From a virus: 64,000 nt of DNA. The DNA lies in the IMG/VR virus record IMGVR_UViG_3300048798_000032, positions 1-64,000 of that record. One strand, 5' to 3'. The translations under genes were made by a program, and so were the position numbers. Under the pieces are notes generated by a model that saw only the letters and a program-made list of their open reading frames with translations, searched no databases and was not told the origin of the DNA. Numbering within the stretch: the stretch's first letter is position 1; every line of letters begins with the position of its first letter. This document shows, one piece after another, positions 5,100-45,894 of the stretch.

Positions 5100-7844
5100 T
5101 TAAAAACCATGCACACGCCCTGACCTGGGCTTCTTCGGCGGATCAGCCGCCCGTTTGGCCAGCAGCAGCCGGCGCACCATCCGGGCCCCGATCACGCACA
5201 CCGCCGCGTCGATCTTCTTCGGCGAGTCCCTGGACTCCTTCGCGATGGCCACACCCCACCGGTTCGGGTGCCGCCGCGTGTTGGCCACATGACGGCCGAT
5301 CCGCGAATCGCCGTCGTGCCGGAACGACCTCTCCTCAGTGATCTCCGTCAGGGTCAGCTCACACGCCGCCGTGAAATCGTGCACGTGGTTCTGCGCCCGC
5401 ATGTCCCACGCGATCACCTGCGGTTCCCGGCCATGCGGTACCGCCTCGATCTCCAGCCGTTCCGCGTACCGTTCCGGCCACGTGACCTTGGTAAAGGATT
5501 CCCACTCGCGGACGTCGGCGAAGAACCCGCACACCTGCCAGCGGTCAAACATCTGCTCCACTGCCGCGTCAACCTCAGCGACGGGGACAGACCACGTATA
5601 GCCGGGCTCGTGCGGGCTGGGGGGTGCTTCCCACACGTCCACGCAGAACACGTAGCCGGTCTCCACGTGGCAGGCGACCAGGGCGGTGGCGTCCCTCGTC
5701 CTCGAGCCGTCGAAGAACGCCACGATCTCGTCGCCGTCACAGATCACCTGCGTGGCGTCGGCGAGGAGCGCCCACTCCTGCTGGGTCACCCACGCGTCAT
5801 AGGTGGCCGTGGGCTGGTTCAGGTAGAAGCGGCGCGCGGTGTCGGGCTTGGTCCGCAGCGACAGGATGCGGTCCCGGATGATCTCCTGGTCCACCCAGAA
5901 CGAGTCCCCGTAGGCGAACTCGATGCCCTTCCGCAGGCTCTCGTCATCGGTGAGGCTCGTGTCCGGGGGCGCCACCCGGGCGTCGTACAGGATCAGCGCA
6001 CCCGATTTCGTGCGCCCTTCCTCCTGCGCCACCCACGCGTCGAACGTGGCCTCGGCGACCGATCCGGCACCCGGCTCCCACGCGTTCGCGGTCTCAATCG
6101 CCCGTGACCCGCTCTTGGCGAGGTTCCGGTCAATGGTGGCGGCCAGGTCCACGCCGCCGTTGGCGATTTTCCAGTGTTCCGGCTCGTCTTCCCCGCAGAA
6201 CGTGACCTCGGCGCCCTCCGCAGCGGCGGCCGACGACGTGATGGCCTCGAGCTGGCCGCCACCGGGGCTGTAGATGACCGTCTTGCCTGGGTCCAGGCCG
6301 TACTCCCGGACCACCTTGGAGCGTTTCGCCGTCATCGCCCGGATGTGGCGCATCGTGTTCGCCGTCGCCGACTCGCTGACGCCGGCGATCTGCACCAGCG
6401 GCATGTCCACCGGCTTGCCCCGCACCCCACCAGGCATGCCGGGGTCGAAACGGTCCAGCCGCACCGGGCCCAGCAACTCGGTGAGTGATATGGCGGCTAC
6501 GGAGGGGCTGTTGTGCGTCGGGATGAGCCCCTCGCCGGCCAGATAGAGGCTCGATGGTGACGAGACCGTCACGCACCGGACGGGAACGCTCTCTGACGGC
6601 TCGATGGCGGTCACCGTGCGCACCTGTGAGTACGGGATCTGCGGACCGCGAGACTTCAGGAGTGCCAGTTTCCGGGCCAGCGAGAAGATCGGCTCCTCAG
6701 CGTAGGCGGTCACGCCGATGCGCCACCTGCGGCCCACCGTCCGCCCGTTGAGCTTTGCATCGGACTCGTTCACGCGCGGGTAAAGCCCGAGCGTCCTGAT
6801 GAGCGCCGCCGCATCAAGCGCGAGACGCCGGCACATCAGCGTGAGCTCGCACCCGGTGTAGCCACGGCCCGGCGCGGAACCGTCGCTATCCATCAGCCCG
6901 CGCAGCAGGTCAAGCCGCTGCTTGTAGGAACCGCGCATATAGGACGCGGGGATGTGCTTGTCGTTGAGTACGCCGATCTGACGCAACGCGTGCATCGCCG
7001 CGCCTTTCAGCGCAGGGTCGGCACCGCCGAGGCGCACGCGGTATGCGTGACCGGACGGATTGCCGGTGATTCTCGGGTTGCCGAGTGGCAGCCCACCGCG
7101 CTCGGCCGCCGCGCGAAGTTCCGGCAGGTCGGCCACGTCCACGGTAATCCGGGCACAGTCGCTGTCACCATCGCCGAGCCAGTAGCCCAGCAGGTACGGG
7201 TCAAGGGGAAAGCCGGCTTCCGGGAGGTCAAGAGCAGGTGTCGGCAGCGTCTTCCACCGTGCGACACCGTTCGTGTAGCACTTCGTGCGCCCGGTGGTGA
7301 GCGTGCGCGTGTACCGGATTCCCAGGTCGTGCGCCTGCTGCGTGGTCACAACCCGCGGGATGCGCTTTGGTCCGCCGACGAACTCGGCAAGCGGCCACAG
7401 ATGCTCCGCGTCGGCGATAATCTGCGTCCTGTCACGGAACGTCAGCCGGTAGCAAGGGCGCTCCGTCATGACATCACTCACGGCCAGGACGGTGCAGGGT
7501 GCGCCGGTCTCGTCCAGGAGCCGGTCACCGGGGCGCACGTCACCCATTGTCGTCCAGCCAGACGGCGTGGGCAGCGGGGTGCCCAGCGCCAGCGCCTTAC
7601 CTGTCCCTTTTGGGTGCCTTCGTACCGCATGCTGGTAGATCCAGCGGCCATCAGGGTGCAGGGCGTAGTACCAGAGCAGGAAACGGACCTGTGACTCCGT
7701 GTACTCCCAGTTCATCCCCGCTCTGGGGCCGTTCGGGTGCCGCAGGTACGTCCCGGCCCACTCGATCGCTATCCAGCCGAGCGTCAGATCCGGGATACCC
7801 GGCGGCAGTGTGACCAGACGGTCGGCCGGGGCGATCTCGCCCAC
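5100..7844 (-). CDS. terL: Terminase large subunit with in-frame intein
   Basis: A 914-residue precursor. After removal of residues 84-445 the 552-residue product is a normal phage terminase large subunit, the ATPase-nuclease motor that cuts and packages DNA. The Walker A motif PKGTGKS is split by the intein between K83 and S446. Walker B lies in EVTFCGEDEPEHW. The RNase H-like nuclease begins at IVAFFDGSRTRDATALVACH. Because the intein sits in the ATP-binding loop, packaging requires splicing. It follows terS and three small genes on the same strand and precedes the portal gene. Confidence 0.93.
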   Translation of the reverse strand: MGEIAPADRLVTLPPGIPDLTLGWIAIEWAGTYLRHPNGPRAGMNWEYTESQVRFLLWYYALHPDGRWIYQHAVRRHPKGTGKALALGTPLPTPSGWTTMGDVRPGDRLLDETGAPCTVLAVSDVMTERPCYRLTFRDRTQIIADAEHLWPLAEFVGGPKRIPRVVTTQQAHDLGIRYTRTLTTGRTKCYTNGVARWKTLPTPALDLPEAGFPLDPYLLGYWLGDGDSDCARITVDVADLPELRAAAERGGLPLGNPRITGNPSGHAYRVRLGGADPALKGAAMHALRQIGVLNDKHIPASYMRGSYKQRLDLLRGLMDSDGSAPGRGYTGCELTLMCRRLALDAAALIRTLGLYPRVNESDAKLNGRTVGRRWRIGVTAYAEEPIFSLARKLALLKSRGPQIPYSQVRTVTAIEPSESVPVRCVTVSSPSSLYLAGEGLIPTHNSPSVAAISLTELLGPVRLDRFDPGMPGGVRGKPVDMPLVQIAGVSESATANTMRHIRAMTAKRSKVVREYGLDPGKTVIYSPGGGQLEAITSSAAAAEGAEVTFCGEDEPEHWKIANGGVDLAATIDRNLAKSGSRAIETANAWEPGAGSVAEATFDAWVAQEEGRTKSGALILYDARVAPPDTSLTDDESLRKGIEFAYGDSFWVDQEIIRDRILSLRTKPDTARRFYLNQPTATYDAWVTQQEWALLADATQVICDGDEIVAFFDGSRTRDATALVACHVETGYVFCVDVWEAPPSPHEPGYTWSVPVAEVDAAVEQMFDRWQVCGFFADVREWESFTKVTWPERYAERLEIEAVPHGREPQVIAWDMRAQNHVHDFTAACELTLTEITEERSFRHDGDSRIGRHVANTRRHPNRWGVAIAKESRDSPKKIDAAVCVIGARMVRRLLLAKRAADPPKKPRSGRVHGF
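6510..7595 (-). other. Class 3 intein with LAGLIDADG endonuclease
   Basis: Residues 84-445 of the terL precursor. The first residue is Ala rather than Cys or Ser, as in class 3 inteins. The three marker residues of that class are all present: W150 (EHLW, block B), C424 (PVRC, block F) and T443 (PTHN, block G). It ends in N445 followed by Ser. Block C (LLGYWLGDGD, about 218-227) and block E (LLRGLMDSDG, about 313-322) are intact LAGLIDADG motifs, so the homing endonuclease is probably active. Confidence 0.88.
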
Positions 7845-9786: not shown

Positions 9787-10152
9787 CTAACTGATCACGT
9801 TCGCGTTGATGCCCGGGTCATCCTGGCCGTCGTCGGCGACCAGCGGCCCCCGGCGCGTCTCCCGGTGCATCCCCGGGTACGCCGAAGGATGCAGCGCCGC
9901 CTCTTCCTCGCGCTTCAGCCGGGCCTCCTGCTGCTCCCTGGACTCCGCGGCACCCGGGACATCACCGGGAAGCCGGGCGTGCAGCTCGTCCACCGTTGGC
10001 GTCCGCTCAGGCACCGGCTGCGGGTGGCCGGCGGGTTCTGATGTCCCCGCGCCCGTGCTGCTAGCCGGCGGGGCATTCTCCTTCACCGGCACCCCCGGCG
10101 TACCTGGCGTGGCGGGTCCCGGCTTCGGGTCAGGCGTCTTCGCGTCAGTCAT
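9787..10152 (-). CDS. Phage Pro-rich disordered protein
   Basis: A 121-residue protein. ATG 10152 has AAGGA six bases upstream. The first 55 residues are Pro/Thr/Ala-rich (TPDPKPGPATPGTPG), followed by the charged helix ESREQQEARLKREEEAAL and an acidic end. First gene of the leftward packaging operon, bordering the TGTTCCGG array. Function unknown. Confidence 0.55.
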   Translation of the reverse strand: MTDAKTPDPKPGPATPGTPGVPVKENAPPASSTGAGTSEPAGHPQPVPERTPTVDELHARLPGDVPGAAESREQQEARLKREEEAALHPSAYPGMHRETRRGPLVADDGQDDPGINANVIS

Positions 10153-10177
10153 GACCATTCCTTTCGCTACAGCGCAA

Positions 10178-10762
10178 TGTTCCGGTGTCCCATTGTTCCG
10201 GTGCGCGAAATGCGCCGCCGTTGTTCCGGCTGTTCCGCCCATTCCCGCGGGCTAGCCGGAACATTGCGCAATTTTTGGCCAATCGCCTTTCTTGGCGCAC
10301 CTTTTCAGCCGCCGCAGGCTTCAAAAAGCGGGGCGATTCTGCCACGCTATGACGTGCCGGTCGCGCGCCGGCTCAGCTAGGGGGCCAGTCCCCACGCCCC
10401 CCTGCCGGTGCGGCGATGTTCCGGCCGCAGCGCGGCACTGTTCCGGTCACTGCCTGTCCACCGACCGGGCATCGCGCCGCAGGTCAGCCGGCGTTCCAGC
10501 CGGTGCCGACCCAAGCGGCTGGTGGCGAGCCCGGCGCGGCTGTGCCGCACGCTGCGGAGCTGCTGGCCTGGTACTCGGCCTGATGGTGAGCGGCTGTCCT
10601 GGTGGCACCCAGAATGCCGCTGGCGGCTGTTCCGGCAATGGAACGCAGGCTCGTGCGCGGGGCGCTGTTCCGGTCTCGCGTTCCGGCTGTTCCGCTTGTT
10701 CCGGTCAATTGACGCCGGATGTTCCGGTGAATGGCGCAGAGGAATTGACATTGACCGGAACG
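10178..10762. repeat. TGTTCCGG repeat array (operator or origin)
   Basis: Between the leftward gene at 10152 and the rightward gene at 10849 there are ten exact TGTTCCGG octamers: + strand starts 10178, 10194, 10222, 10417, 10439, 10628, 10666, 10697 and 10720, and one inverted at 10256. Near copies are at 10231, 10679, 10688 and 10755. Spacings of 9 or 16 bp recur. The inverted copy at 10755 lies between the -35 and -10 of a promoter. No convincing gene lies in these 696 bases. Confidence 0.8.
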
Positions 10763-10773
10763 GCGCGCATACT
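10745..10773 (+). promoter_or_regulatory. Rightward promoter with embedded repeat
   Basis: TTGACA (10745-10750), 17 bases, CATACT (10768-10773). The spacer contains CCGGAACG (10755-10762), a near-copy of the array repeat, so a protein binding it would block polymerase. Drives the lipoprotein/clamp/ATPase group. Confidence 0.65.
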
Positions 10774-10848
10774 GAGGACATAAGCGAGGCCCGCGCAACG
10801 GGAATTGCCGGGCCTCATGATCACAGATGAACCGTTGGAGGTTCTGTG

Positions 10849-11079
10849 ATGAGGAAGATTCTAGCCGCTCTCGTGCTGGCCGTCACGCTGGCCGGATGCG
10901 GTACGGTGCATCACCAGCCGGCGGGATGCGTCTCGCCGTCTGAGCCTGCCGGGACTGCGATTCAGGTCAACGGGGATGGCAGCGCGGTCGTTGCCCCGTC
11001 GCTGGACGTGGCCAACTACGTGTGCGTGTCCACTGGTGCCCGGTTCACCTGGGTTGCCACTGCGGTGCCGGTCCGGTGA
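10849..11079 (+). CDS. Small lipoprotein
   Basis: A 76-residue protein with a lipoprotein signal: MRK, a hydrophobic run (ILAALVLAVTLAGC) and the lipobox LAGC at about residue 18. The mature part has about 58 residues and two further cysteines. The ATG at 10849 is 7 bases after GGAGG; a GTG one codon earlier is possible. First gene of the rightward early group. Superinfection exclusion is one possible role, but nothing in the sequence proves it. Confidence 0.65.
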   Translation: MRKILAALVLAVTLAGCGTVHHQPAGCVSPSEPAGTAIQVNGDGSAVVAPSLDVANYVCVSTGARFTWVATAVPVR

Positions 11080-11695: not shown

Positions 11696-12841
11696 ATGTC
11701 CACCGTAACAGGCTTGAAGATCACCGTGAACCGCGCCGAGTTCGCTGCCGCGGTCGCGTTCGCCGGCAAGGCACTTCCGCGCAGCCCGGCTGCCGCGGTG
11801 CTCGCAGGCATGCGGCTTGAGGTCGCTGACGGGCACCTGACCGTCGCCGCGTTCGACTATGACGAAGCGCGCCGCGTGCACGTCGCCGGCGAGTTCGCTG
11901 AGTCTGGCGTGATCCTGGTGAACGGCGCGCAACTCTCAGCGGTCGTCAAGGGCATGGCCAAGGGCAAGACCGTCACGGCCGAACTTGAGGCTGGCGGCAA
12001 CGGCCTGACGCTGCGGTGCGCTGGCGCTGTCTCGCAACTGGCCGCGCTGCCGCTGGACGACTACCCGGCGCTGCCGCCGATGCCCGCACTGTCAGGCACC
12101 GTAGACGGTACCGCGTTTGCCCGGTCAGTGGCCCGTGTCGCCGTGGCGGCGAGCCGCGATGACACGCTGCCCGTGCTCACGTGCGTCCAGCTTGAGACCG
12201 GCACCGGTTCGCTCACGCTGGCCGCCACCGACCGCTACCGGCTGGCGACGGATGAACTGCACTGGACGCCGGCCGGGCTGGACGCTGAGTCGGGCCGGTA
12301 CCTCGTGCCGGCAGCGGCGCTGACCGCGTTCGCGAAAGGCTGCAGCGGCAAGGTGACCGTGCACTTCGGCACCGATCCCCGCACTCCTGCCGGTCACGCC
12401 GGTTTCAGCGACGGCACGCGCGAGATGATCGTGCACTGCATGGGCGGCGAGTATGTGAGGTACAGCCAGATCCTGCCGGGCAGCTGCGAGGCGTCGGCCG
12501 TGCTGGACGCCAGTGCACTGGCTGGTGCCGTCAAGCGCGCTGGCGCGATGGTTGAGCGCAACATGCCGGTGCGGCTCACGTTCGACGGCTGCACGTCGGT
12601 GGTCACGGTGACTGCGGTGCGTGATGGTGCTGTCGCCAGCACTGAGCATGTTCCCGCCGAGTTCACCGGAACGCCGCTGGATGCCGGCTACAACCCGGCG
12701 TATCTCGGCTCGCTGCTGAGCGGCGTTGACGGTACCGCGCGGCTCAGTTTCAACGGTGCCACCAAGCCAGTCCAGGTGACCAGCAACAGCAGTAAGGACG
12801 CCTACCGGGCGATCTGCATGCCGATCCAGAATGCAGCCTGA
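11696..12841 (+). CDS. dnaN: DNA polymerase III beta-type sliding clamp
   Basis: A 381-residue phage copy of the bacterial beta clamp, the ring that tethers the replicative polymerase to DNA. All three repeated domains are visible: ITVNRAEFAAAVAFAGKAL at the start, FARSVARVAVAASRDDTLPVL near 142 and ASALAGAVKRAGAM near 270, with the typical ATDRYRLATDEL segment near 182. A GGAGGG site lies 9 bases upstream. The C-terminal end (AICMPIQ) resembles the VMPMRL hydrophobic C-terminus of cellular clamps. It suggests the element directs its own replisome assembly. Confidence 0.9.
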   Translation: MSTVTGLKITVNRAEFAAAVAFAGKALPRSPAAAVLAGMRLEVADGHLTVAAFDYDEARRVHVAGEFAESGVILVNGAQLSAVVKGMAKGKTVTAELEAGGNGLTLRCAGAVSQLAALPLDDYPALPPMPALSGTVDGTAFARSVARVAVAASRDDTLPVLTCVQLETGTGSLTLAATDRYRLATDELHWTPAGLDAESGRYLVPAAALTAFAKGCSGKVTVHFGTDPRTPAGHAGFSDGTREMIVHCMGGEYVRYSQILPGSCEASAVLDASALAGAVKRAGAMVERNMPVRLTFDGCTSVVTVTAVRDGAVASTEHVPAEFTGTPLDAGYNPAYLGSLLSGVDGTARLSFNGATKPVQVTSNSSKDAYRAICMPIQNAA

Positions 12842-12979: not shown

Positions 12980-14332
12980 ATGATAGACCAGGAAGCCATC
13001 ATCGACGCGGAACTAGTGGACGACGACAGCGCGGGCACGGCGGTTGCGGAAACGCGCCCGCGTGCCTCCATGGCCGTTGCCCGGCACGAGGAGCAGATCG
13101 ACGGGGCGTGGCTGCTGAACCTTGCGGACGCCTGGATCGGGCGGCACTGCTATATGTCCGATGCGGCGCGGCACACGCTGGCGCTGTGGACGATGGCGCA
13201 GCACTTCCGCAGCAATGGCCGGATGATCTGGGAGAAGTTCGGTCACCTGCTGTTCATCGCCGAGACGCCCGGATCGGGCAAGTCGACCGCGATGACGATC
13301 GGCGGCTACCTGTGCGCGCCGTGGTTCTTCGGGCTCGACCTGAACCCGACAGCACCAGGGCTCTGCATGACGATCGGGCAGGAGCACGCCGTGGTGTGCA
13401 TCGACGAGGCGCACCGGCTGATCGGGCCGAAGGGCACGAAGAAGGCCGACGTCGTGACGATCATGTGCGGCTCGTTCGAGAAGAACGGCTCGTACCTGAA
13501 CGGGCGCGGCGGCAAGGCGACCCGCGTCAGGGTGTGGTCGCCCATGATGATCGCCGCGAAGAAGGACCCGTTCCTGACCAGCGCCGGCGAGGAGATCAGC
13601 GACGTGATCGACCGCTCGGTGCTGATCATGATGTCCAAGCCGCCCGCCGACGACGACCCGGAGAATCCCGCGCTCATGCCGCTGACGGCCGAGACGGAGA
13701 TGATGGGCGCCCAGATCGCCGCACGCGCCGCCGCGTGGGCCGCTCAGGCAATGGCCGACCCTGACCGGATGCGCACTGCCATGGCCGCCGCGCGGACGGC
13801 TGCGGCACAGACTGGGCTGGTGGGCCGTGACGCTGACGTGTGGCTGGCCATGTTCACCGTCGCCGCGCTGGCCTCACCCGGTCATCTGGAGGTGGCCTGC
13901 CAGGCCGCCGCGGAGTTGCGGCTGCACCGCCCGGCCGCGCAGGAGGTGGAGACCGACCCGCTGCGCGAACTGGAGGCCGGTCTCATGCGGGACGGCGCAC
14001 CGCTCGGCTGGGGTGCTGCTGTCACGCCAGCCAGGGTGCACGAGGTTCCGGTGGCGGCCGCAGCCGGCGAGGCGGCCGGGTCAGCCGATCCGCAGATCCT
14101 CGGGGACATCGCGGATGTGTGGCCGGATGGTGAGGCGAAGATGGCGAGCGCCGGCCTGGTGGCGCGGCTCGGCTGGGATGTGAGCGGCCCCGATGAGGTG
14201 CGCACCGCCCAGCGGGAGCTGGCGGCGCTGCTGAAGCCGCACGGCGTGGTCCCGGTCAAGGTCCGGATCGGTGACCGGACGGTGTGGGGATACCGGCTCG
14301 CGGACTTTCCGGCGCTGGCGATGGCTGCGTAA
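12980..14332 (+). CDS. DUF3631-like replication ATPase
   Basis: A 450-residue P-loop ATPase. Walker A is AETPGSGKST (about 95-104) and Walker B is VVCIDEAHRL (about 138-147). RVRVWSPMMIAAKKDPFL and DVIDRSVLIMMSKP follow, as in the DUF3631 ATPase domain found next to primases in actinobacterial phages and conjugative elements. The C-terminal 80 residues (DIADVWPDGEAKMASAGLVARL...) look like a winged helix. It lies just after the clamp gene, supporting a role as helicase or primase-associated motor. Confidence 0.8.
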   Translation: MIDQEAIIDAELVDDDSAGTAVAETRPRASMAVARHEEQIDGAWLLNLADAWIGRHCYMSDAARHTLALWTMAQHFRSNGRMIWEKFGHLLFIAETPGSGKSTAMTIGGYLCAPWFFGLDLNPTAPGLCMTIGQEHAVVCIDEAHRLIGPKGTKKADVVTIMCGSFEKNGSYLNGRGGKATRVRVWSPMMIAAKKDPFLTSAGEEISDVIDRSVLIMMSKPPADDDPENPALMPLTAETEMMGAQIAARAAAWAAQAMADPDRMRTAMAAARTAAAQTGLVGRDADVWLAMFTVAALASPGHLEVACQAAAELRLHRPAAQEVETDPLRELEAGLMRDGAPLGWGAAVTPARVHEVPVAAAAGEAAGSADPQILGDIADVWPDGEAKMASAGLVARLGWDVSGPDEVRTAQRELAALLKPHGVVPVKVRIGDRTVWGYRLADFPALAMAA

Positions 14333-14439: not shown

Positions 14440-14497
14440 TTGACGTCCTCCCCGGCCTGAAGGCGCGGGGATTCCTGCTGCGCGGCTCACGCCGCGC
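14440..14497 (-). repeat. Right end / omega-RNA scaffold of copy 1
   Basis: Read on the - strand: inverted repeat GCGCGGC..GCCGCGC and hairpin CCCCG-cgccttcaggc-CGGGG, ending GACGTCAA. In TnpB systems this region is the 3' scaffold of the guide RNA, with the guide read from the DNA just beyond the end (here 14439 and leftward). It is 98% identical to the orphan at 4676-4733. Confidence 0.7.
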
Positions 14498-15683
14498 TCC
14501 GGTGGGTTCCTGTTTCACGGACAGCCGCCGGGGCAAGCCCCGGCCTTACGCCGTCTCCGCAGGCGTTTAGAGTGTCCCTGCGTCCCAGGGCCACTATGTT
14601 CCGGGCCGCGTTGACGTCCCGGTCATGCGCTGCTCCGCACCCGCCGCACGTCCATGCGCGGACACTCAGCGGCTTCGGGCCGTCCTTCACGCCGCACACC
14701 GAGCACACCTGCGACGTGGGCTCGAACCGGCCGATCTTGCCAAAGGTGCGGCAATGCCGGGCGGCCTTGTATTCCAGCATTCCGGTGAAGGTGGCCCACC
14801 CGGCGTCGTGCACTGACTTGGCCAGCCTCGTGCGCGCCAGGCCCCTGACGCACAGATCCTCCACGTACACCGCTTGGTTTTCGCGGATGATGCGCGTGGA
14901 TTCCTTGTGCAGCCAGTCCCGGCGCGAGTCGGCCACGTGGGCGTGGACCCTGGCGACCCTAACCCGGGCCTTGGTGCGGTTGCTGCTGCCCTTGGCCTTG
15001 CGGGACAGGGCCTGCTGCGCCTTGCGGAGCTTCCGCTCAGCCCGGCGCAGGAACTTCGGGGAGGCGACCTTCCGGCCATCCGACAGGACCGCGAAGTGGG
15101 TCAGCCCGAGGTCGACGCCTACCTCAGTACCCACCTCGGGGAGTGGGTCACCGGGGACCTCGACCACGAACGAGGCGAAGTACCGGCCCGCCGCGTCCTT
15201 GGTCACGGTCACGCTGGACGGTTCGGCGGGGAGCGGGCGGGACCAGCGGACTGGTATGTCCCCGATCTTCGGCAGCCGCAGATTCCCGTTCGGGAGCACC
15301 TTGAACCGGGCGTTGGCGGTGAACCGGGCCGACTGACGGTGGTCCTTGCGGGACCGGAACCGCGGTGGTGCCACCTTCGGCCCCTTCCGCTTACCCGTGG
15401 CGGAGGCGAAGAAGTTCCGGTAGGCGGTGTTCAGGTCCGCGAGGGCCTGCTGAAGCACCACCGACGACACGTTGCCCAGCCACGCCCGTTCCGGGGTGGT
15501 CTTGACAGTGGTCAGCTGGGCCGACAACTCGGCGTCGGTGATGTACGGCTCCCCGGCGGCGAATGCTTCCCGCCGCGCGGCCAGCGCGTCGTTGAACACC
15601 ACCCGGGTGCAGCCGAACGCCCGGCCGAGGCCCTGCCGGTGCCGGGGGGCCGGGTCGAGGCGGTAGTTGTACCGGAGCTGCAC
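14487..15683 (-). CDS. tnpB: TnpB RNA-guided nuclease (IS605 family)
   Basis: A 398-residue TnpB, ancestor-type of Cas12. RuvC residues are intact: D191 (GVDLGL), E275 (VEDLCV) and D354 (AAHDRD). The zinc ribbon uses C327, C330, C346 and C349. TnpB cuts the empty donor site under omega-RNA guidance, which helps keep the transposon. The GTG at 15683 is chosen because a TATACT -10 lies 6 bases upstream, predicting a leaderless mRNA. The reading frame continues further upstream without a credible start. Confidence 0.88.
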   Translation of the reverse strand: MQLRYNYRLDPAPRHRQGLGRAFGCTRVVFNDALAARREAFAAGEPYITDAELSAQLTTVKTTPERAWLGNVSSVVLQQALADLNTAYRNFFASATGKRKGPKVAPPRFRSRKDHRQSARFTANARFKVLPNGNLRLPKIGDIPVRWSRPLPAEPSSVTVTKDAAGRYFASFVVEVPGDPLPEVGTEVGVDLGLTHFAVLSDGRKVASPKFLRRAERKLRKAQQALSRKAKGSSNRTKARVRVARVHAHVADSRRDWLHKESTRIIRENQAVYVEDLCVRGLARTRLAKSVHDAGWATFTGMLEYKAARHCRTFGKIGRFEPTSQVCSVCGVKDGPKPLSVRAWTCGGCGAAHDRDVNAARNIVALGRRDTLNACGDGVRPGLAPAAVRETGTHRSAA

Positions 15684-15689
15684 CCGCTC

Positions 15690-15697
15690 AGTATAAT
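15690..15697. promoter_or_regulatory. Overlapping divergent -10 elements, tnpA/tnpB
   Basis: TATAAT (15692-15697, + strand) lies 7 bases before tnpA ATG 15705; TATACT (15690-15695, - strand) lies 6 bases before tnpB GTG 15683. The two hexamers share four base pairs, so polymerase cannot occupy both. Both mRNAs would be leaderless. Confidence 0.65.
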
Positions 15698-15704
15698 TGG
15701 TTTT

Positions 15705-16121
15705 ATGGCCGAGTACGGCACCGTACGCACTGGCAGGCATTGTGTTTTCATCCTGCACGCACACTTGGTTTTCGTCACCAAATACCGGCATCAGGTGTTC
15801 ACCGCCGCGCACCTGGAACGCATGGAGGAGATCATGCGGGACGTGTGCGCGGACTTCGGCACCGAACTGGCCGAGTTCAACGGCGAGGCAAACCACGTCC
15901 ACCTACTGGTGAACTTCCCGCCCACCGTGGCCCTCTCCCGGCTGGTCAACAGCCTCAAAGGCGTCTCGTCCCGCCGGCTGCGGCAGGAGTTCCCCAGCCT
16001 CGTAAGGCACTACTGGCGGGCTAAGCGACTGTGGTCCGGGTCGTACTTCGCCGGATCGGTCGGCGGGGCACCCATCAGCGTCCTGCGCCAGTACATCGAG
16101 CAGCAAGACCGGCCGGCTTAG
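15705..16121 (+). CDS. tnpA: TnpA Y1 HUH transposase (IS200/IS605)
   Basis: A 138-residue single-strand transposase. The HUH motif is H64-V-H66 in GEANHVHLLVN and the catalytic tyrosine is probably Y130 in VLRQYIEQQ. Length and layout (LHAHLVFVTKYRHQVF at the start) are typical for the family. Acts as a dimer to excise and insert the element as single-stranded DNA through the hairpins at its ends. Confidence 0.9.
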   Translation: MAEYGTVRTGRHCVFILHAHLVFVTKYRHQVFTAAHLERMEEIMRDVCADFGTELAEFNGEANHVHLLVNFPPTVALSRLVNSLKGVSSRRLRQEFPSLVRHYWRAKRLWSGSYFAGSVGGAPISVLRQYIEQQDRPA

Positions 16122-17657: not shown

Positions 17658-17963
17658 TCAGGCGGCGCAAGAGAGGCTTTTGCTGGCCTCGATCGCAGCA
17701 ATCTCGCGGTAGTCGTAGACGTTCCAGCGGCCGATCTTGCCGAGTGGCTCGATGCCGTAGCGCTCGATCCAGGTGCGCACCGTGGAGGCGGGAACGCCGA
17801 GCAACTCACCAGCCCGGGTGGGGGTGACGATGTCCTCGGGCTCGATGCCAGGACGGGGCGGCATTGACCACCACCCCGGCACAGGAAAATCCCGTCGGCG
17901 CTCAGCGGGCGGGATTTGGGCACACGTATCTAGGTCGGTAGCGTCCCAGATTTTAGCGATCAT
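17658..17963 (-). CDS. MerR/excisionase-like HTH protein
   Basis: A 101-residue DNA-binding protein. The HTH lies in PTRAGELLGVPASTVRTWIERYG (about 48-70), followed by a basic wing (GKIGRWNVYDYREIAAIE). It could be an excisionase/RDF or a regulator. No integrase gene is seen in the window. Confidence 0.7.
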   Translation of the reverse strand: MIAKIWDATDLDTCAQIPPAERRRDFPVPGWWSMPPRPGIEPEDIVTPTRAGELLGVPASTVRTWIERYGIEPLGKIGRWNVYDYREIAAIEASKSLSCAA

Positions 17964-18011
17964 GTCAAAGGCTGGCCTGCGGGCACGCCGCAGAACGCGC
18001 CTTCAAGAGCA

Positions 18012-18962
18012 TCAGGTGCTCCTTGAAATACAGCGGGTGCCCACGGAAGTCGCGGCCGACTGGGTGGATCTTGCCGCCTTTCCGAGTTCCTCCAGCTGGA
18101 CCTGGTACACGCGGCCCATGAGCAGGTCGTAGGACGGCCCAATGTAGGCATTCGGGCAGTCGGTGCAGCGGACTTTGGGTTCCCATCCGCCGTCGTGAGC
18201 CTCGTACTGGACGAGGGTTTTCCCTTTGCACTCGTCGCAGCGGACCTCAGTGATGCGCCGGCGCTGGCGGGACTTGCCGAGCATCCCTCGCGCCCGGCCG
18301 TTGAGGGCAAGGAACTCCAGGCCGGCCCCTGTGCCGTCCAGGGTCACGTCTTCCCAGGCGTCGCCGGACGTGTCGTACCTGATGGGCTGCAAGGCTACCC
18401 AGGGCTGGCCGGCTTCATTGAGCACGAGTTCGGGGGTCTCGTCACCGTGCTCGGCAATAACCTCATCCACCCGGATGCGGGTGGCGGCGCGAGTGTACTC
18501 GTGCGGTTCCAGTGACAGGAGGGTGCCAAGGTAGCGGTTGAGGTAGCGGCATGCGTGGTCCAGTGCCACCGAGTCGCGGCGCCGGCCATCCGGGTAGTCC
18601 GACAGGTCCGCAATCCCGTAGACCCGTTCTTCCCACGACAAAGTAACGTGAACGATCTCCCGCATGAACGCCTGGACATCGGCGGCGATGGGGATCGGCG
18701 GCTCGCGGGAGCCCGAGACGCGCTCCTCAAGTTGCTCGCTGCGGGCCAGTAGCCCCCGCAGCTCCACATAGGTCAGCGGAAGCTCAGTGATGGCGCGGGC
18801 GATGTATTGGGTGTCTGTCTCGCAGAACGCCCTCGGGCACAGGTTCGCGTTGCCCTGGTAGTCGCGTTCCTCGCAGCGCATTCCCCGGGCGCACGGTGTC
18901 AGCCCGGCCTGGTCGCTGTAGGTGTCTGGTTCAGGATCCCGGTAGTGCCCGCGACGTCCCAC
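18012..18962 (-). CDS. Actinophage protein with zinc ribbons
   Basis: A 316-residue protein from GTG. Cys clusters CARGMRCEERDYQGN...LCPRAFCETD at the N-terminus and VRCDECKGKT / KVRCTDCPN near 235-265 form two likely zinc sites. The middle part is helical. Similar proteins occur in actinophages, with unknown function. The start is directly next to the TAA of the upstream gene. Confidence 0.65.
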   Translation of the reverse strand: MGRRGHYRDPEPDTYSDQAGLTPCARGMRCEERDYQGNANLCPRAFCETDTQYIARAITELPLTYVELRGLLARSEQLEERVSGSREPPIPIAADVQAFMREIVHVTLSWEERVYGIADLSDYPDGRRRDSVALDHACRYLNRYLGTLLSLEPHEYTRAATRIRVDEVIAEHGDETPELVLNEAGQPWVALQPIRYDTSGDAWEDVTLDGTGAGLEFLALNGRARGMLGKSRQRRRITEVRCDECKGKTLVQYEAHDGGWEPKVRCTDCPNAYIGPSYDLLMGRVYQVQLEELGKAARSTQSAATSVGTRCISRST

Positions 18963-19157
18963 TTACCCCCCTGAACTGCGAGAAGCACCGGACTGTAACT
19001 CTCTGCCTGAGCTAGAGGTTAGTGTGCCGTATCCGTTAGGGAAGTGCCAATAGAACCGTGTTCGGGTGGCAAGCAGGAAGATCAGGCCCGCGGCGAGGAG
19101 GATGAGCGGCAGTGCTCCGGATAGATCGTGAGGTGGGCATGCAGGCTGAACGCTCAC
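18963..19157 (-). CDS. Small membrane protein
   Basis: A 64-residue protein with one membrane helix (ALPLILLAAGLIFLLATRT, about 15-33). Its stop codon directly abuts the GTG of the next gene. Unknown function. Confidence 0.55.
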   Translation of the reverse strand: MSVQPACPPHDLSGALPLILLAAGLIFLLATRTRFYWHFPNGYGTLTSSSGRELQSGASRSSGG

Positions 19158-19258
19158 TCAGGCCACCCGCCTCGCCGCCGCATCTTGGACCGCGCCGAAC
19201 GCGATCTTCGCGCATTCCGGGTCACCCCGGGTGCAGTCGGCTGTGAACCAGGAACCCC

Positions 19259-19306
19259 GGCCCGCGAGGACCGGAATCCCCGCCGTTCACGGCGGGGAGT
19301 AGTCAA
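19259..19306 (+). repeat. Orphan IS200/IS605 right end, type 2
   Basis: The core GGAATCCCCGCCGTTCACGG and following bases match the right end of copy 2 (29949-30005) at nearly all positions, including the CCCCGCCG-TTCA-CGGCGGGG hairpin and the GTCAA end. No transposase remnant is beside it. It cuts into the gene at 19303-19368. Confidence 0.7.
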
Positions 19307-19368
19307 GAGTGTGCCCCGTTCCCGTTCGGTGCCATCTCTGCGCCGACGCGGATCTTAGTCTTGGCCAT
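19303..19368 (-). pseudogene. Gene start truncated by element end
   Basis: A good AGGAG site lies 8 bases before ATG 19368. The frame reads MAKTKIRVGAEMAPNGNGAHS and stops inside the orphan element end. The well-formed start and short length suggest the 5' remnant of a gene interrupted by a former insertion. It is the first gene after the DUF2637 gene. Confidence 0.5.
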
Positions 19369-19414
19369 GTGAACCGCTCCTGTGACTAGGTCATCAAAGC
19401 ATCACCGATGACGC

Positions 19415-20278
19415 TCACCCTTCCTGTCTCACAAGGTGCGGTCGCTTGTCCTCTTTGATCCACCGTCCCGCAGTCGCCTTTGAGACACCAACCGACTCAG
19501 CCAGTGCGGCCTGAGTGATCGACGGGTTGGCGCGGATGAGGCGGCGTGCCCTGGCTCGCTGCTCCGGTGTGGCGCGAGGCTTGGATGAGTCATTCGTACG
19601 TCGTTGCTGCGTCATCGGATGCGGGTCAGGTGAGCCGGTAAGTGACTCACCGGATGCGTCATCGGTCAGATCATCAGCGACGAGAGATTCATCCGCTGAT
19701 GCCTCATCGTCGCTGGCCGGCCCATCGGCGGGCGCTTCATCCCGGCGTGCTTCCCACCTGCTGACCGCTTCCCGTGGGTCAGTGATACCGGCCCACGTCG
19801 CGTCGAACATGACCTGCGCCGACCGGAGCGGATGCCACGCCCACCGGGTCATCCCGAGACGCAGCGCGTGCGGTTCAACGAGCCCCCTGGCCATCAGCGC
19901 GTCACGGGACGCCCGGCGCGAATGGACCGCCCACAGCCACGGTGACGACACGGACATGAGCCCGAACGCCACCGCGGCAAAGGTGGGGCGCCAGCCGGGC
20001 CCGGCGTAGTGGTCGTAGTTCATCGCGCCGATCACCGCGGCGAACGTGTACGCGGCCAGCCGTAGGCGCAGCGCTGAGTCGTTGGCGAGCTGCGCGACGT
20101 GCGCGTGATAGCCGAGGTAGACGGCGATGGACTCCAGCGCCAGGGCCACCAGGATCTGGCCGCCTAGCGGCCAGTGCAGGTGAGTGCGCAGGAATGCGAG
20201 CTGGCCAGCGAACGCCACCGCGTTGACCAGGGCGACAGGAACCGCTGCGGCGATGGGGTGGGTCTTGCCGGTGCTCAT
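19415..20278 (-). CDS. DUF2637 membrane protein with C-terminal HTH
   Basis: A 287-residue protein. Residues 1-125 carry about four membrane helices with the DUF2637 signature (HWPLGGQILVALALESIAVYL), a family of actinomycete plasmids and integrative conjugative elements, often near tra/spd genes. After an acidic linker, residues 235-285 form an HTH (NPSITQAALAESVGVSKATAGRWI). Probably linked to DNA spread between hyphal compartments. Last intact gene of the traB operon. Confidence 0.78.
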   Translation of the reverse strand: MSTGKTHPIAAAVPVALVNAVAFAGQLAFLRTHLHWPLGGQILVALALESIAVYLGYHAHVAQLANDSALRLRLAAYTFAAVIGAMNYDHYAGPGWRPTFAAVAFGLMSVSSPWLWAVHSRRASRDALMARGLVEPHALRLGMTRWAWHPLRSAQVMFDATWAGITDPREAVSRWEARRDEAPADGPASDDEASADESLVADDLTDDASGESLTGSPDPHPMTQQRRTNDSSKPRATPEQRARARRLIRANPSITQAALAESVGVSKATAGRWIKEDKRPHLVRQEG

Positions 20279-20374
20279 CTGGCTATCCTCCGCTTTCGTC
20301 CTCGTTGGTGACGGGGTTTGAACTGCCCGTTTCCGTCACTCTCCGTGACGCTTGCGGGTTGCCCCTCCCCCATC

Positions 20375-20452
20375 CGGCCATTGCCCGGCCATTAGCCGTG
20401 GCCATTCGGCGGCCATTGCCCTATGCAGCCACATCCCGGCCATTCGGCCATT
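20375..20452. repeat. CGGCCATT repeat array beside traB (clt-like)
   Basis: Five copies of CGGCCATT (GGCCATT starting at 20376, 20387, 20411, 20438 and 20446) and one TGGCCATT (20399) lie within 78 bases, 35 bases after the traB stop. Streptomyces plasmids carry 8-bp direct repeats (clt/TRS) near traB that the winged-helix C-terminus of TraB binds during transfer. The repeat word differs from the known GACCCGGA. Confidence 0.65.
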
Positions 20453-20486
20453 GCGTGCACGGACGTGTGCGGGTGCGCGCCCGTCG

Positions 20487-22577
20487 TCACAGAGGGTGAG
20501 AGTTCAGCCAAGCCTCACCCTCGGCAGTGATCTTGAACTTGGCGCCCTTCCCCTTGCCGGGCGGACCCACCAGGCCGTCGAGCCGAAGGCGGTTCATCCA
20601 GGCTGTGACCTCGTGCCTTTTCGCGCCGAGTTGATCAACCAAGGCGCGGCCGGAAACGCCCTCACCTGCGGAAAGCTGCAAAAGCCGCCGCTTCTGCTCG
20701 TCGGTGATCATGGTCTTGCGGGCTTCCTCGGCCCACGCTGCCGAGGTGAAGCGGTCCAGTTGATCTTGCGGCACGCTGGCGAGCCGGGCGGCCATCTCCT
20801 CGTTCTCGCTGGCCACGCGATCATTCGCGGCGCGCTTGCCGTCGAGTTTGGCGAGCAGCGCGCGGGCTTCCGGGTCGAGCGCGGAGTCAAGGCTGCCGTG
20901 TTCCATGTCGTACGCTCCGAGGTCGCCGGGGGTCTCCGGTGCGGGGGAGGGGGTTGTTACTGGCGGGTAACTTCCCGGTGGCCCGGCCGGTCCGCCACCC
21001 GCCGTGACCGTGACCTTCGCGCTGGGACGCTGCGGCAGGCCAGCCTCCAGCTTCACCGGGCGGTCGCGGCGCTCGTACGCCAGTTCACGGACGTCCAGCA
21101 GGTCGGACAGGTTGAAGGCGCGGCCGATCTCCGAACGGCCACCCGCCTCGCGCTCACCGATCCACCAGACGCCCGAGTGCGCCTCGCCGTAGGCGGACAT
21201 GTTCGGCGCGTCAGCCTCCCCGGCGGCGTGGTTCGCATCGGTCTGGTTGCAGCGGCCGATGCACGCCAGGTCTGCCTGGCTGCGGACGTTCGCGCCGCCG
21301 AACCACTGGGCTACGCCGCGCTGGCCGGCGAGCAGCACGGCCAGGGCCTCGCTGCGGTGCTTGGACGTGATGTGCTGGAGCCGCTCGGACGCGCCGGGAA
21401 TCTTCATCAGCGCGTCGATCTCGTCGGCGACCAGGACGACGCCCGGCTGCTCGCTGGAGGGGATCAGCGTGGCGACGTCGCGGCCGAGCAGCGGCCGGCC
21501 GTCGATGATGCCGCACAGCCAGTCCAGGATCGCGATCGCCTTGCGGGACTGGCCTGGGCCGATCGCGCTCTCGTAGCAGGCCGGCGACCACTCCAGCGCC
21601 TCGATCGCCTTCGACACGTTGATGTACACCAGCAGCGCGTCATCGCAGGCGGTCACGGCTTCGCACACGTCGGAGATCAGCGTGGTCTTGCCGGCATCCT
21701 TCTTGCCGACCATGATGACCGTCTTGCCGCCGTGGGAGTCGAACAGGGTCATGCGGAGCGGGCGCCCGCTGTCGGGGTCCTGGCCGACGATCAGCGGCTG
21801 CGTGATGGTGCGCGGCCCGGTCAGGTCGATCTCCGGTGCGTCATCAAACAGCGGGTGCGGGATCGGGTGCTTCCACGGGTCGCGGAGCTGGATACGCAAC
21901 CGCAGGCGGCCGGGCTTGGGTGCGCTCGAATGCACGCGCCCAAACGGCAGTCCGCGGCGTTCGGCGTAGCGCTCCTCGAGGTCCCGGCCCGCTAGCGACG
22001 TGGCGCGGCGGCCCGTGCCGGTCGTGTCGAACTCGAGCACTTCACCGAGCCGGGTCTCCTCGTGGCTGATCAGGTGCGCACCACCGATGCCGAGGGGGTG
22101 CGCCTCGCGGAGCGCGCCCATCTTGCGTGCGCGCCACGTCTTCGCCGCGGTGACCACCTCGTGCCGGTGCAGCCAGCGCAGGCCCCACAGTGCGAGCGCC
22201 AGCCACACCCACGTCACCGCGCAGTACGGGCCGTACAGCGGGCCGTGCCAGGTGGCCAGCGCAAGCCAGCCGCCCGCGAACACGGTCCCGGTCAGGACTT
22301 GCCGGGCGTGCTTGAGCCGCTTCTCCGGATCGGCGCGCTTGTGCGCTTTGCGCGCCATCCGGGCATGCAAAAGCGCGCCAACGGCAACGGCGGCGAGTGC
22401 GATGTCGAGCGCGGGAACGTGGGTCAGGTGGAACGTCTCCGACGCGACCCACAGTGCGACCGCACCGGGAAGCGCGGCGCGTGCGGCCTGCTCGGCTGGC
22501 TCACGCTTCAGCGCGGCGTGATGCGCGTCGACAGCGGCAGGCGCGCTTGGCGATGGCGGCAGTTCAGCGAGGGCCAT
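20487..22577 (-). CDS. traB: TraB-like FtsK-type DNA translocase
   Basis: A 696-residue protein. Membrane helices occupy about 35-135. The motor has Walker A GKKDAGKT (291-298) and Walker B VVLVADEID (380-388). A Pro-rich linker and a C-terminal winged helix (DEQKRRLLQLSAGEGVSGRAL...) follow, the same order as in Streptomyces TraB, which pumps double-stranded DNA from donor to recipient mycelium. Neighbouring DUF2637, hydrolase and regulator genes support the assignment. An FtsK-like role in resolving the element is the alternative. Confidence 0.85.
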   Translation of the reverse strand: MALAELPPSPSAPAAVDAHHAALKREPAEQAARAALPGAVALWVASETFHLTHVPALDIALAAVAVGALLHARMARKAHKRADPEKRLKHARQVLTGTVFAGGWLALATWHGPLYGPYCAVTWVWLALALWGLRWLHRHEVVTAAKTWRARKMGALREAHPLGIGGAHLISHEETRLGEVLEFDTTGTGRRATSLAGRDLEERYAERRGLPFGRVHSSAPKPGRLRLRIQLRDPWKHPIPHPLFDDAPEIDLTGPRTITQPLIVGQDPDSGRPLRMTLFDSHGGKTVIMVGKKDAGKTTLISDVCEAVTACDDALLVYINVSKAIEALEWSPACYESAIGPGQSRKAIAILDWLCGIIDGRPLLGRDVATLIPSSEQPGVVLVADEIDALMKIPGASERLQHITSKHRSEALAVLLAGQRGVAQWFGGANVRSQADLACIGRCNQTDANHAAGEADAPNMSAYGEAHSGVWWIGEREAGGRSEIGRAFNLSDLLDVRELAYERRDRPVKLEAGLPQRPSAKVTVTAGGGPAGPPGSYPPVTTPSPAPETPGDLGAYDMEHGSLDSALDPEARALLAKLDGKRAANDRVASENEEMAARLASVPQDQLDRFTSAAWAEEARKTMITDEQKRRLLQLSAGEGVSGRALVDQLGAKRHEVTAWMNRLRLDGLVGPPGKGKGAKFKITAEGEAWLNSHPL

Positions 22578-22580
22578 GAC

Positions 22581-23462
22581 TCATTCCCTGATCGTCCAGT
22601 GACCGTCTTTGGTCGGGTCGTGAGTCTCGGCCCACTCCAGGTGCTCCCTGAAGTAATCGACCGTCCGCTTCACCGCGAGATGCAGACCGGCCGCCACCTC
22701 GTGGAAGCCGTCCGCGAACTCGAACGTGGTCCGCAGCGCGGCCGGGTGGACGCCGGGGCCATGGATCAGGCCGTCCGCATAGGCCGCGAACGCTTCCCCG
22801 TAGCCCGCGAAACCTCTCGCCTCACGGGTCATGAAGTCGATGTGCTCGGGCAGCCCGACCGGCTCGAACTCCGCGATCCGCTGCTGGGCTGCCGCATGGT
22901 CTGGGGGGATCACCGCCGTGATGGTGGCGAATCGCTGCCGGGCCGGGGGTGGTGCGGGACCGTCGGCGGGGGGAAGGGCCGGGGGTGGTGCGGCGCGGCG
23001 CACACCGGAACTGGTCCGGGCCGCCGGCTCCGGCGGTGGCACGGAACGCAATGCCCGAAGGGAGCCAGCGTCGGGCTGCTTGCCATCTGCTCGTGCCTGC
23101 CGCTTGGCCTGGGCCTTCGCGCGCGCATCCTTCAGTGCGGCGATCATGGCGACTGCGGCGGCGGCGATGGAGGCACCCACCGTGCGGTCCTTGCCTGCCT
23201 TCACGTCCTGCCGGATGCGCCACAAGGCCATGAACAGCCCCACGACGCCAACAGCAATCCCGGCAATGAGGGCACCGGTATCAGCGCGGGCGCCAACCGC
23301 CAGTGCCCACCCCAGAAGCGAACCCGTGACCGCGCTCGCGATACCGAGGGAACGGGCGAGCTGCTCGCGGTCGGCCCACCGATGCTGCTGGACGGCCAGG
23401 AGCACGAACAGCGCGGCGAGTGCCACGAATGCCAGCCATGCGACGGCGGTCAGGAAAGACAC
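22581..23462 (-). CDS. Membrane protein of transfer operon
   Basis: A 293-residue protein with three membrane helices (about 5-25, 40-60, 65-85), a charged Ala/Lys-rich helix, a Pro-rich linker (PPPALPPADGPAPPP) and a soluble C-terminal domain of about 110 residues (HIDFMTREARGFAGYGEAF...). It precedes traB by 3 bases. Its position suggests a spread/Spd-like accessory; sequence similarity does not prove it. Confidence 0.6.
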   Translation of the reverse strand: MSFLTAVAWLAFVALAALFVLLAVQQHRWADREQLARSLGIASAVTGSLLGWALAVGARADTGALIAGIAVGVVGLFMALWRIRQDVKAGKDRTVGASIAAAAVAMIAALKDARAKAQAKRQARADGKQPDAGSLRALRSVPPPEPAARTSSGVRRAAPPPALPPADGPAPPPARQRFATITAVIPPDHAAAQQRIAEFEPVGLPEHIDFMTREARGFAGYGEAFAAYADGLIHGPGVHPAALRTTFEFADGFHEVAAGLHLAVKRTVDYFREHLEWAETHDPTKDGHWTIRE

Positions 23463-23743
23463 GCTTCCTCCTCGGTGATGTCTTGCTGAACTTCAGCCTC
23501 GGCCAGCAGTCGGCCACGCCGGCGCTTCTCCGTCCGCCACGTCGACACGAACAGGCACGCACCGACGAGAGAAGCCGTCCACAGGTAGGTCACGAGCAGG
23601 CTCACGTCTGGTGCGGTAGCCAGAGCGCGGTAGTCGGCCAGCGCGTTGCGTGACAGGTGGACGGAGGTGTCTGGCTCAAGGCTGCCGATCAGGCCGGCCG
23701 CTAGGCCGCTGAGCAAGATGCCGGTGATGACGGCGGCGCGCAT
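23450..23743 (-). CDS. Small two-helix membrane protein
   Basis: A 97-residue protein with helices at about 3-21 and 52-70 and a charged tail. ATG 23743 shares ATGA with the transglycosylase stop, and the end overlaps the next gene by 13 bases. Spd-like by position. Confidence 0.6.
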   Translation of the reverse strand: MRAAVITGILLSGLAAGLIGSLEPDTSVHLSRNALADYRALATAPDVSLLVTYLWTASLVGACLFVSTWRTEKRRRGRLLAEAEVQQDITEEEACLS

Positions 23744-24225
23744 CAGTACCAGCTCCACTGGAGCTCGTGCCGCCATGCGTTGCACGGCGTGAGGTACCGG
23801 CCGCTGATGTAGCCGAGACCCCAGCGGATCTGCGTCACGGCGCTGGTCTGCCAGTTGGTGCCAGCGCTGGCCATCTTGCCGGGGGGCAATGCCTGCGGGA
23901 TGCCGAGCGCGCCGGAATCTGGGTCAACAACCTCGGGTGACCAGGTTCCGGCCGACTCGCGGGTCCACAGCCAGTCCAGGCACGAGGTCTGGTGACCGGT
24001 CCAGCCGTAGCCGCTGGCCGCCATGTCGTTGGCGAGCTGCTCGTTGCTGGAGTAGTGAGCGGGTGCAGCGATCGCCATTGTTGCCGCGTCGGGAGCGTGG
24101 TGTCCTGACGGCTGGTGGCTGGCACCCTGGATCAAACCCGCGGCAACGAGCGCAGCACCGAAACCGGCGGCGGCTCGCTTGACTGTGACCGTGTGGCCGT
24201 AGCGCGGGTAGCGGTAGCGGGTCAT
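23743..24225 (-). CDS. Lytic transglycosylase-like protein
   Basis: A 160-residue lysozyme-fold protein. An N-terminal hydrophobic segment (AAAGFGAALVAAGLIQGA) is an anchor or signal. The catalytic glutamate is E90 in WLWTRESAGTW, followed by SGALGIPQALPPGKM and the TQIRWGLGYISGRY helix typical of this family in actinobacteria. It would open peptidoglycan locally during transfer or infection. ATGA overlaps on both sides. Confidence 0.82.
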   Translation of the reverse strand: MTRYRYPRYGHTVTVKRAAAGFGAALVAAGLIQGASHQPSGHHAPDAATMAIAAPAHYSSNEQLANDMAASGYGWTGHQTSCLDWLWTRESAGTWSPEVVDPDSGALGIPQALPPGKMASAGTNWQTSAVTQIRWGLGYISGRYLTPCNAWRHELQWSWY

Positions 24226-24407
24226 CGGCGACGCCGGTTCTTGCGCCTGCACCGGGGGCATACCGGCGCGTCCGGGCCCGGGTCGCGCTCACCGGGACCG
24301 AGGACGAGGGAGGCTCCGCATATGCCACGAGGCTCGAAGCCGAGCAACTCCTTGAATATCTGCCAGCGGCCCACGATGTGGGAGTAGGGGTCATGTCTGG
24401 GGGCCAT
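24222..24407 (-). CDS. Small CxxC protein
   Basis: A 61-residue basic protein (MAPRHDPYSHIVGRWQIFKELLGFEPRG split over its first half) ending CPRCRRKNRRRR. ATGA overlaps with both hydrolase genes. Unknown function. Confidence 0.55.
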   Translation of the reverse strand: MAPRHDPYSHIVGRWQIFKELLGFEPRGICGASLVLGPGERDPGPDAPVCPRCRRKNRRRR

Positions 24408-24940: not shown

Positions 24941-24943
24941 AGG

Positions 24944-25216: not shown

Positions 25217-25217
25217 C

Positions 25218-25397: not shown

Positions 25398-25488
25398 GTG
25401 GCTCACACCCCAGGACGGGTGATGCTTGGCGGTGTGGGCTGTGGCTGCGGGGACCATGTGGGGCTTCTCTCGTCGGTGCGGGTTTTGA

Positions 25489-25630: not shown

Positions 25631-25644
25631 GAAGGCGGGAAGGA

Positions 25645-26001: not shown

Positions 26002-26035
26002 GATGCCCTCCTGAGCCAGCGATGGCACGGAGCGG

Positions 26036-26224: not shown

Positions 26225-26311
26225 CGGGCTTGTCCTCTCGTACCGGGATTGGACGGGTTGCGAACGGCTCGGATGTTCCAGCATCCGGGCCGTTGTTTTG
26301 CGTGCGGGGGA

Positions 26312-44931: not shown

Positions 44932-45894
44932 TTGGCCCGCATCCGGAGCATCAAGCCCGAGGCGTTCACGTCAGAAACGCTGGCCAGCCGCCATGTTCAT
45001 GCGCGGTGGACGTTTGCCGGGCTGTGGTGCTACGTGGATGACGAGGGTCGCGGGCTGGCGAATCCCGGTCTTATCAAGGCTGCCGTTTGGCCGCTAGATG
45101 ACGACATTTCAGTAACCCAGGTGGGCGCATTTCTGGATGACCTTGAAGCCGCCTATGTGATCTGCCGCTACGAAGTTGACGGTAAGCGATACCTGCATGT
45201 CGTCAACTTCGGGGAGCACCAGCACCCGAACCGGCCGCTCCCCAGTAAGTTGCCCGCCTGCTCACGGAGGACTCACGGAGGACTCAGTGAGCAGGCAGTA
45301 CGCACTCATCCGGAAGGCCCTGGCGGTGCTCCTGGCACCCCGGCGGCATCTTCTGAGGCCACGACCACCGAAACCGGGATCCAGGGCGACATAGGCGCAG
45401 GTCAAGACCCACTCACTGAGGACTCAGTGAGTGGTCACGGAGTTGTTAATCCAAAGCCGTCCGGTACCCCTCCTACTCCTCTCCGTTACGAACAAGGAGA
45501 AGGAGATGGAGGGGGAGATGGAGTTCAGCAGGCTACGCCTGCTGCCGCGAAGGACTCGCGGCAGCTCACGGTCACGCAGCGCTCAAAAAGGCTTACCGAC
45601 GCCTATGCCGAAGCCGAGCCGATGTGCAAGTGGCCGGCCGTGAACACCGCCGTCATCCGGGCAATCAAAACCGAGAAGTACGCCGACGAGGAAATCCGCG
45701 ACGCCCTGCTGCGAATGGCCAAGGACGGCACGGGCGTGACCATTGAGTCGCTGCGGGTCGAGCTGGCCGGCTTCGGCAAGCGTGGCTCTGGCCAGCAGTC
45801 CGCTACAAGCCAATCCACGGGGGCCGACCGTGCCCGTGCTGCCCGTGAGGCGGGCCAGCGTGTTCAGGCAATGCTCGAAGGAGGGAACCGGTGA
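44932..45894 (+). CDS. Phage replication initiator-like protein
   Basis: A 320-residue protein starting ARIRSIKPEAFTSETLASRH, then ARWTFAGLWCYVDDEGRGLA and NPGLIKAAVWPLDD, the N-terminal domain of phage replisome organisers. A disordered middle and a helical C-terminal domain with repeated charged motifs follow. TTG 44932 has AAGGTGG 6 bases upstream. With the next gene it forms the usual initiator/loader pair. Confidence 0.75.
   Translation: MARIRSIKPEAFTSETLASRHVHARWTFAGLWCYVDDEGRGLANPGLIKAAVWPLDDDISVTQVGAFLDDLEAAYVICRYEVDGKRYLHVVNFGEHQHPNRPLPSKLPACSRRTHGGLSEQAVRTHPEGPGGAPGTPAASSEATTTETGIQGDIGAGQDPLTEDSVSGHGVVNPKPSGTPPTPLRYEQGEGDGGGDGVQQATPAAAKDSRQLTVTQRSKRLTDAYAEAEPMCKWPAVNTAVIRAIKTEKYADEEIRDALLRMAKDGTGVTIESLRVELAGFGKRGSGQQSATSQSTGADRARAAREAGQRVQAMLEGGNR

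Follow-up and report, generated by a model that had tools for sequence, protein, structure and literature searches.

The alpha protein of phage P4 binds the type 1 repeats of its ori and crr regions. In the P4 record these annotated repeats are mostly TGTTCACC, with spacings of 9-11, 22 and 43 bp, and crr adjoins the alpha primase gene. The repressors of cluster A mycobacteriophages act at over 20 sites, which are scattered across the promoters and intergenic spaces of the whole genome (PMC9283540), and the parS of RedRock consists of 8-bp direct repeats (PMC7157519). Finally, Wetzel et al. studied RepA phages, found no repeated motif in the region that they inspected, and suggested that the origin lies within or just upstream of repA (PMC7157519).

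The window analysed here comes from a large phage of an actinobacterium and covers bases 1-64,000 of an IMG/VR virus record of 103,428 bp. Within 10178-10727 the exact octamer TGTTCCGG occurs ten times, nine times on the plus strand and once on the minus strand. Near copies, with two GTTCCGG cores beyond those of the ten exact octamers, raise the counts across 10150-10800 to 12 for GTTCCGG and 14 for GTTCCG, which bears out the initial annotation's description of ten exact octamers plus near copies in some 600 bases. The array is made up of three groups:

10178..10263, plus strand: left group, with exact octamers at 10178, 10194 and 10222, TGTTCCGc at 10231 and the inverted (minus-strand) exact copy at 10256
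10417..10446, plus strand: middle pair of exact octamers, starting at 10417 and 10439
10628..10761, plus strand: right group, with exact octamers at 10628, 10666, 10697 and 10720, near copies cGTTCCGG at 10679 and TGTTCCGc at 10688, and the inverted 7-mer CCGGAAC at 10755-10761

The array is real and is confined to one locus. A search of the full record, as the initial annotation had proposed, found only four octamers in the other 102.8 kb (6175, 14597, 93316 and 93409), all inside called genes and none near the array, so the concentration of ten at this locus is far beyond chance. At the record background, ten octamers in 650 bp have a Poisson probability of ~3e-23; in none of 500 Markov simulations of the region was there more than one. 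The copies point mostly one way and are irregularly spaced, at 9-38 bp within groups; these 8-bp words do not fit a classical iteron origin, which has repeats of 17-22 bp at regular spacing. No second octamer cluster, of the kind that would form a separate crr-like cis region, was found in the record, and no segment beside the array is strongly AT-rich. The minimum of the cumulative GC skew, the origin check that the initial annotation had suggested, does fall inside the array region at 10512, though the signal is weak, and both divergent transcription and the net skew of a circular map confound it. When the 700-bp region served as query, searches for similar DNA returned no phage match and only short, unrelated plasmid matches, and Rfam returned no RNA family for the region.

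By our own gene calls, the array fills the largest non-coding gap of the record (10153-10848), which separates leftward packaging genes from a rightward promoter for clamp and ATPase genes. The divergent arrangement of packaging and replication genes that had been read from the sequence is confirmed, the rightward replication genes being the clamp and the ATPase. The principal features around the gap are:

5100..7844, minus strand: terminase large subunit, 914 aa, with an intein-like LAGLIDADG insertion
9787..10152, minus strand: first leftward gene and start of the packaging arm, 121 aa, no family match
10745..10773, plus strand: rightward early promoter TTGACA-17-CATACT (TTGACA 10745-10750, CATACT 10768-10773)
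10849..11079, plus strand: first rightward ORF, 76 aa, lipoprotein-like
11696..12841, plus strand: DNA polymerase III beta-like sliding clamp
12980..14332, plus strand: P-loop ATPase with a DUF3631 C-terminus, Walker motifs recognized by eye

Leftward from 10152 there are two ORFs without a strong family match, a phrog_226 protein, an RNase-like gene, the terminase and the portal, while small ORFs precede the clamp and then the ATPase on the rightward side, from 10849. The terminase large subunit is ~360 aa longer than its relatives, and the extra, LAGLIDADG-matching length is probably an intein. Integrase, excisionase-like and XRE genes at 65-69 kb make it probable that the phage is temperate. 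Apparently the map is circular and the record complete, because the gene that follows the portal in the related prophage L005 sits at the opposite end of this record, matching a spacing of ~280 bp.

Conservation of the cluster in L005 supports a function for the array. This prophage is only moderately related in the module: its clamp is 45% identical, and the sole stretch of the ATPase reported by tblastn is the C-terminal 75 aa, at 48% identity. Nevertheless, L005 carries seven copies of GTTCCGG (eight of GTTCCG) in ~150 bp upstream of a matching promoter, clamp and ATPase, a cluster with a Poisson chance of ~6e-11. Its position is that seen in the window and its orientation is mostly alike, although the flanking DNA differs, and it is the arrangement of the right group (10628..10761) that is kept. 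Beyond L005, no array was found in Frankia and Streptomyces clamp relatives, and a search through 395 genomes of the class for further TerL-group hosts brought up none in the six flanks inspected.

Besides the early promoter, no perfect TTGACA promoter turned up in the record, and no sigma-70 promoter that reads leftward was convincing. The initial annotation placed an inverted octamer in the 17-bp spacer of the early promoter, with the geometry of an operator. The promoter and its spacing stand, but the spacer copy (10755-10761, CCGGAACg) matches at 7 of 8 positions and is not an exact octamer. In L005 the counterpart is TTGCAT-17-CATACTGAGG, which has in common the TTG, the 17-bp spacing and CATACTGAGG. 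Its spacer lacks GTTCCGG and holds a different palindrome, ACCGCATGCGGT, in place of the octamer, so the spacer site is not a constant part of the array. A putative operator in the promoter spacer is thus possible for this phage only, and not for L005, where promoter and array are retained without it.

Arrays of the same octamer also occur in other viruses. Viral contigs were scanned for three closely spaced copies of TGTTCCGG, and further scans used triple GTTCCGG or the reversed octamer; in all of them the figures come from the matches listed and are minimum counts, and the samples may be biased. In each scan, coding repeats or regular tandem repeats seem to account for most of the matches listed; those for TGTTCCGG look mostly like coding repeats, set apart by multiples of three. 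Irregular arrays made up at least 24 of the 120 matches listed for TGTTCCGG, one being the window itself, and at least 7 of the 120 listed for the reversed-octamer control, none of these 7 with inverted copies. Six contigs that share one protein family (L215, L218, L237, L268, L270 and L272) have 7-14 octamers, some in each orientation, immediately 3' of, or overlapping the end of, a gene for a TOPRIM-domain protein of 884-984 aa. Other arrays adjoin genes for a Toprim+DUF5906 protein (L273, 5 bp away), a Prim-Pol+AAA protein (L271), a Toprim protein (L194) and, outside the 24 irregular cases, a D5_N/DUF5906 protein related to P4 alpha (L073). SNF2-type helicases are the neighbours of irregular arrays in L209, L223 and L047, and unrelated genes in L111 and L208. 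The link between octamer arrays and primase genes, drawn from the neighbours of TGTTCCGG arrays among the matches listed, is an association rather than a measured enrichment, six of the cases coming from one family. Across 90 sites beside TOPRIM genes, T at position -1 and GG are kept while the flanks are free, giving the same edges as in the window. As separate observations, tandem runs of the 9-bp CTGTTCCGG, with up to 16 copies, occur in L034, L070, L212 and others, which are prophages of ~50% GC, and L185 has an array of ACGACAGG (11996-12134) within a replication-initiation gene (phrog_1032).

Since clusters of TGTTCCGG adjoin DNA-priming genes in unrelated phages, the array is most likely to be a replication start. 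The primase-side arrays, together with the likeness to the octamers of P4 ori and crr, lead us to favour a P4-like origin over a switch for repression alone, and we consider it rather probable that the array is such an origin, possibly with one autoregulatory site in the promoter. The window shares with P4 irregular clusters of TGTTC octamers near replication genes, at spacings of 9-11, 22 and ~40 bp. In contrast, P4 uses the word TGTTCACC, and neither its pair of cis regions nor its TOPRIM-type primase-helicase was found here, while in the window the octamers run mainly in one direction and are placed around a predicted cos. The arrays at TOPRIM genes resemble that of the window in the octamer and its edges, in being irregular and multi-copy, and in lying by a replication gene; they differ in their more evenly mixed orientations, in their position 3' of the primase gene, and in that no clamp operon was seen beside them. 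A search of this genome for TOPRIM_3, Prim-Pol, DUF5906 and P4-alpha matches returned none. Because no alpha-type primase is detectable, the array would at most work like the P4 origin and is not classed as one. Further points against an origin are the largely uniform direction and uneven spacing of the sites, the want of a strongly AT-rich neighbour, and the arrays elsewhere beside helicase or unrelated genes; points in favour are the conservation in L005, the GGAACA runs in RepA-like genes of actinophages and, weakly, the position of the GC-skew minimum.

From these comparisons we infer binding, the identity of the initiator, origin function and autorepression. A phage-encoded initiator would assemble on the irregular octamer cluster and open the DNA at an origin adjoining the operon that would supply the clamp and the ATPase, and through the inverted 7-bp copy between the promoter elements the initiator might also repress this operon. 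As candidate for the initiator we propose the DUF3631 ATPase (12980-14332), for which one homologue was found. AlphaFold models of the whole protein (pLDDT 33) and of its C-terminal 96 residues (pLDDT 50) were too poor to be used, and Foldseek on them gave nothing significant; we do not count as evidence a match at E 1.9 to 1ka8, the origin-binding domain of P4. If this proposal is true, it would name the replication start for a group of large actinobacterial phages, beside cos and the early promoter, point to DUF3631 ATPases as initiators, and turn irregular TGTTCCGG clusters into a searchable origin signature for phages that lack replication studies. One would then also have to ask why an almost identical octamer serves phages that are not related to one another.

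A possible but less probable alternative is that the octamers serve a transcriptional switch only, with a phage repressor or activator controlling the rightward early promoter and the leftward packaging gene. The sites concentrate by both divergent gene starts, one 7-bp copy lies within the promoter spacer, the L005 array is upstream of the conserved promoter, and the genome encodes several regulators (GntR at 26619, XRE at 31626, and a further XRE at 2909-3439 of L002). However, no octamers occur near any regulator gene, the L005 spacer is without a site and its array begins well upstream of the promoter, and comparable arrays elsewhere adjoin primase genes, not regulators. A stoperator network is not supported and was rejected, as the sites are at one locus only. 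Cluster A operators and stoperators are likewise asymmetric, biased in orientation and present at an early promoter, but they are 13 bp rather than 8 bp long and genome-wide rather than at one locus, and the regulators here are of GntR and XRE types. The initial annotation had left the choice between a stoperator-like region, an origin, or both; its stoperator half is not supported, given the single locus, and its origin half gains from the arrays at primase genes and the P4-like spacing.

The genome also encodes a RepA-like initiator, whose locus could be the real origin in place of the array:

44932..45894, plus strand: RepA-like replication initiator (phrog_2149, E 9e-38)

This gene has its own repeats at 45263-45436 (GGACTCACGGA, ACTCACTGAGGACTCAGTGAGT), unlike TGTTCCGG. 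Because these repeats are different, two origins in this phage are possible, as is another role for the array. The gene also carries a GGAG-rich tract. In RepA-like loci of actinophages (L138-L143 and L152-L165), GGAACA units lie inside the initiator gene in all 20 of 20, with 2-5 units each. They are mostly set in 8-bp steps that cycle through all reading frames, which suggests selection on the DNA, and the tandem units resemble an origin that, like the one in lambda O, lies within the initiator gene. CTCGCGA repeats are often present upstream of them. These initiators resemble the present case in repeating a GGAACA/TGTTCC core at a replication gene and in belonging to a family found in this genome, but their repeats are mostly 8-bp tandem units inside the gene, and this phage's own copy differs. 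It is conceivable, if rather doubtful, that TGTTC-core octamers are an origin word common to replicons whose initiators are unrelated, owing either to one winged-helix domain that different proteins carry or to a conserved host factor. Equally doubtful is the set of replicons that such sharing would take in: P4 alpha with TGTTCACC, the Toprim, DUF5906 and Prim-Pol phages and the present clamp/DUF3631 phage with TGTTCCGG, and the RepA-like loci with GGAACA.

A predicted cos within the array, absent from the initial annotation, was newly found here from an alignment of the window with the prophages L008 and L005 and with both ends of the records of Corynebacterium phages Poushou and Juicebox:

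10345..10403, minus strand: predicted cos, cut at 10348/10349 (minus strand CCGGCACGTCAT before the cut, AGCG after it), with a GTGGGG-CTG-GCCCCC element at 10380-10403

The element common to the aligned sequences is GGGTGGGG-x-CCCC, followed by CAT and then the cut; the record ends of MalagasyRose agree, with CAT before the cut and AGCG after it. Three further terminase relatives (L181, L183 and L185) have the cos element as well. It is very unlikely that the octamers are terminase-binding, cosB-like sites around cos, even with five copies 85-170 bp away on the terminase side. The L005 array lies ~500-650 bp from cos, beyond an HNH gene and beside the promoter and clamp, with no copies on the terminase side, and no GTTCCGG cluster was found at cos in L181, L183, L185, L008 or Poushou, which bear cos but are without the clamp/ATPase module; the octamers are thus not conserved as cosB sites would be. 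Because the octamers are missing from relatives that bear cos, we assign the array to the replication module; that it goes with the clamp and ATPase rather than with cos follows from L005, which has both. As an observation in its own right, the terminase relative L008 has a cluster of GTAGGAACC/GGTTCCTAC sites (919-1078) adjoining a primase-like gene.

Less probable still is a partition centromere of short direct repeats for a ParB- or omega-like protein. In its favour, the RedRock parS is likewise of 8-bp direct repeats (PMC7157519); against it, those repeats differ in letters, integrase genes are present, and no match to ParB_N (PF02195) was found, a search that leaves room for a small RHH-type ParB.

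Further genes in the record deserve mention. Two OrfB/TnpB-like genes are present (14487-15902 and 28415-29959), the first, with a Cas12f1-like TNB domain, lying directly downstream of the clamp/ATPase pair. A module at 17658-27086 resembles actinomycete conjugative elements, and holds a MerR/excisionase-like gene, a weak DUF2637 match, a 696-aa AAA ATPase and the GntR regulator. An RtcB-like RNA ligase gene runs from 62816 in the window to 64915 in the record, possibly with an intein (NCBIfam intein-containing RtcB models). Finally, a TROVE/VWA (Ro60, Rsr-like) protein is encoded at 71011-72588 of the record (L002:7011-8588), and just upstream of it (L002:6585-6705) is a weak full-length Y-RNA-like (YrlA) match of 20.5 bits (E 0.57).
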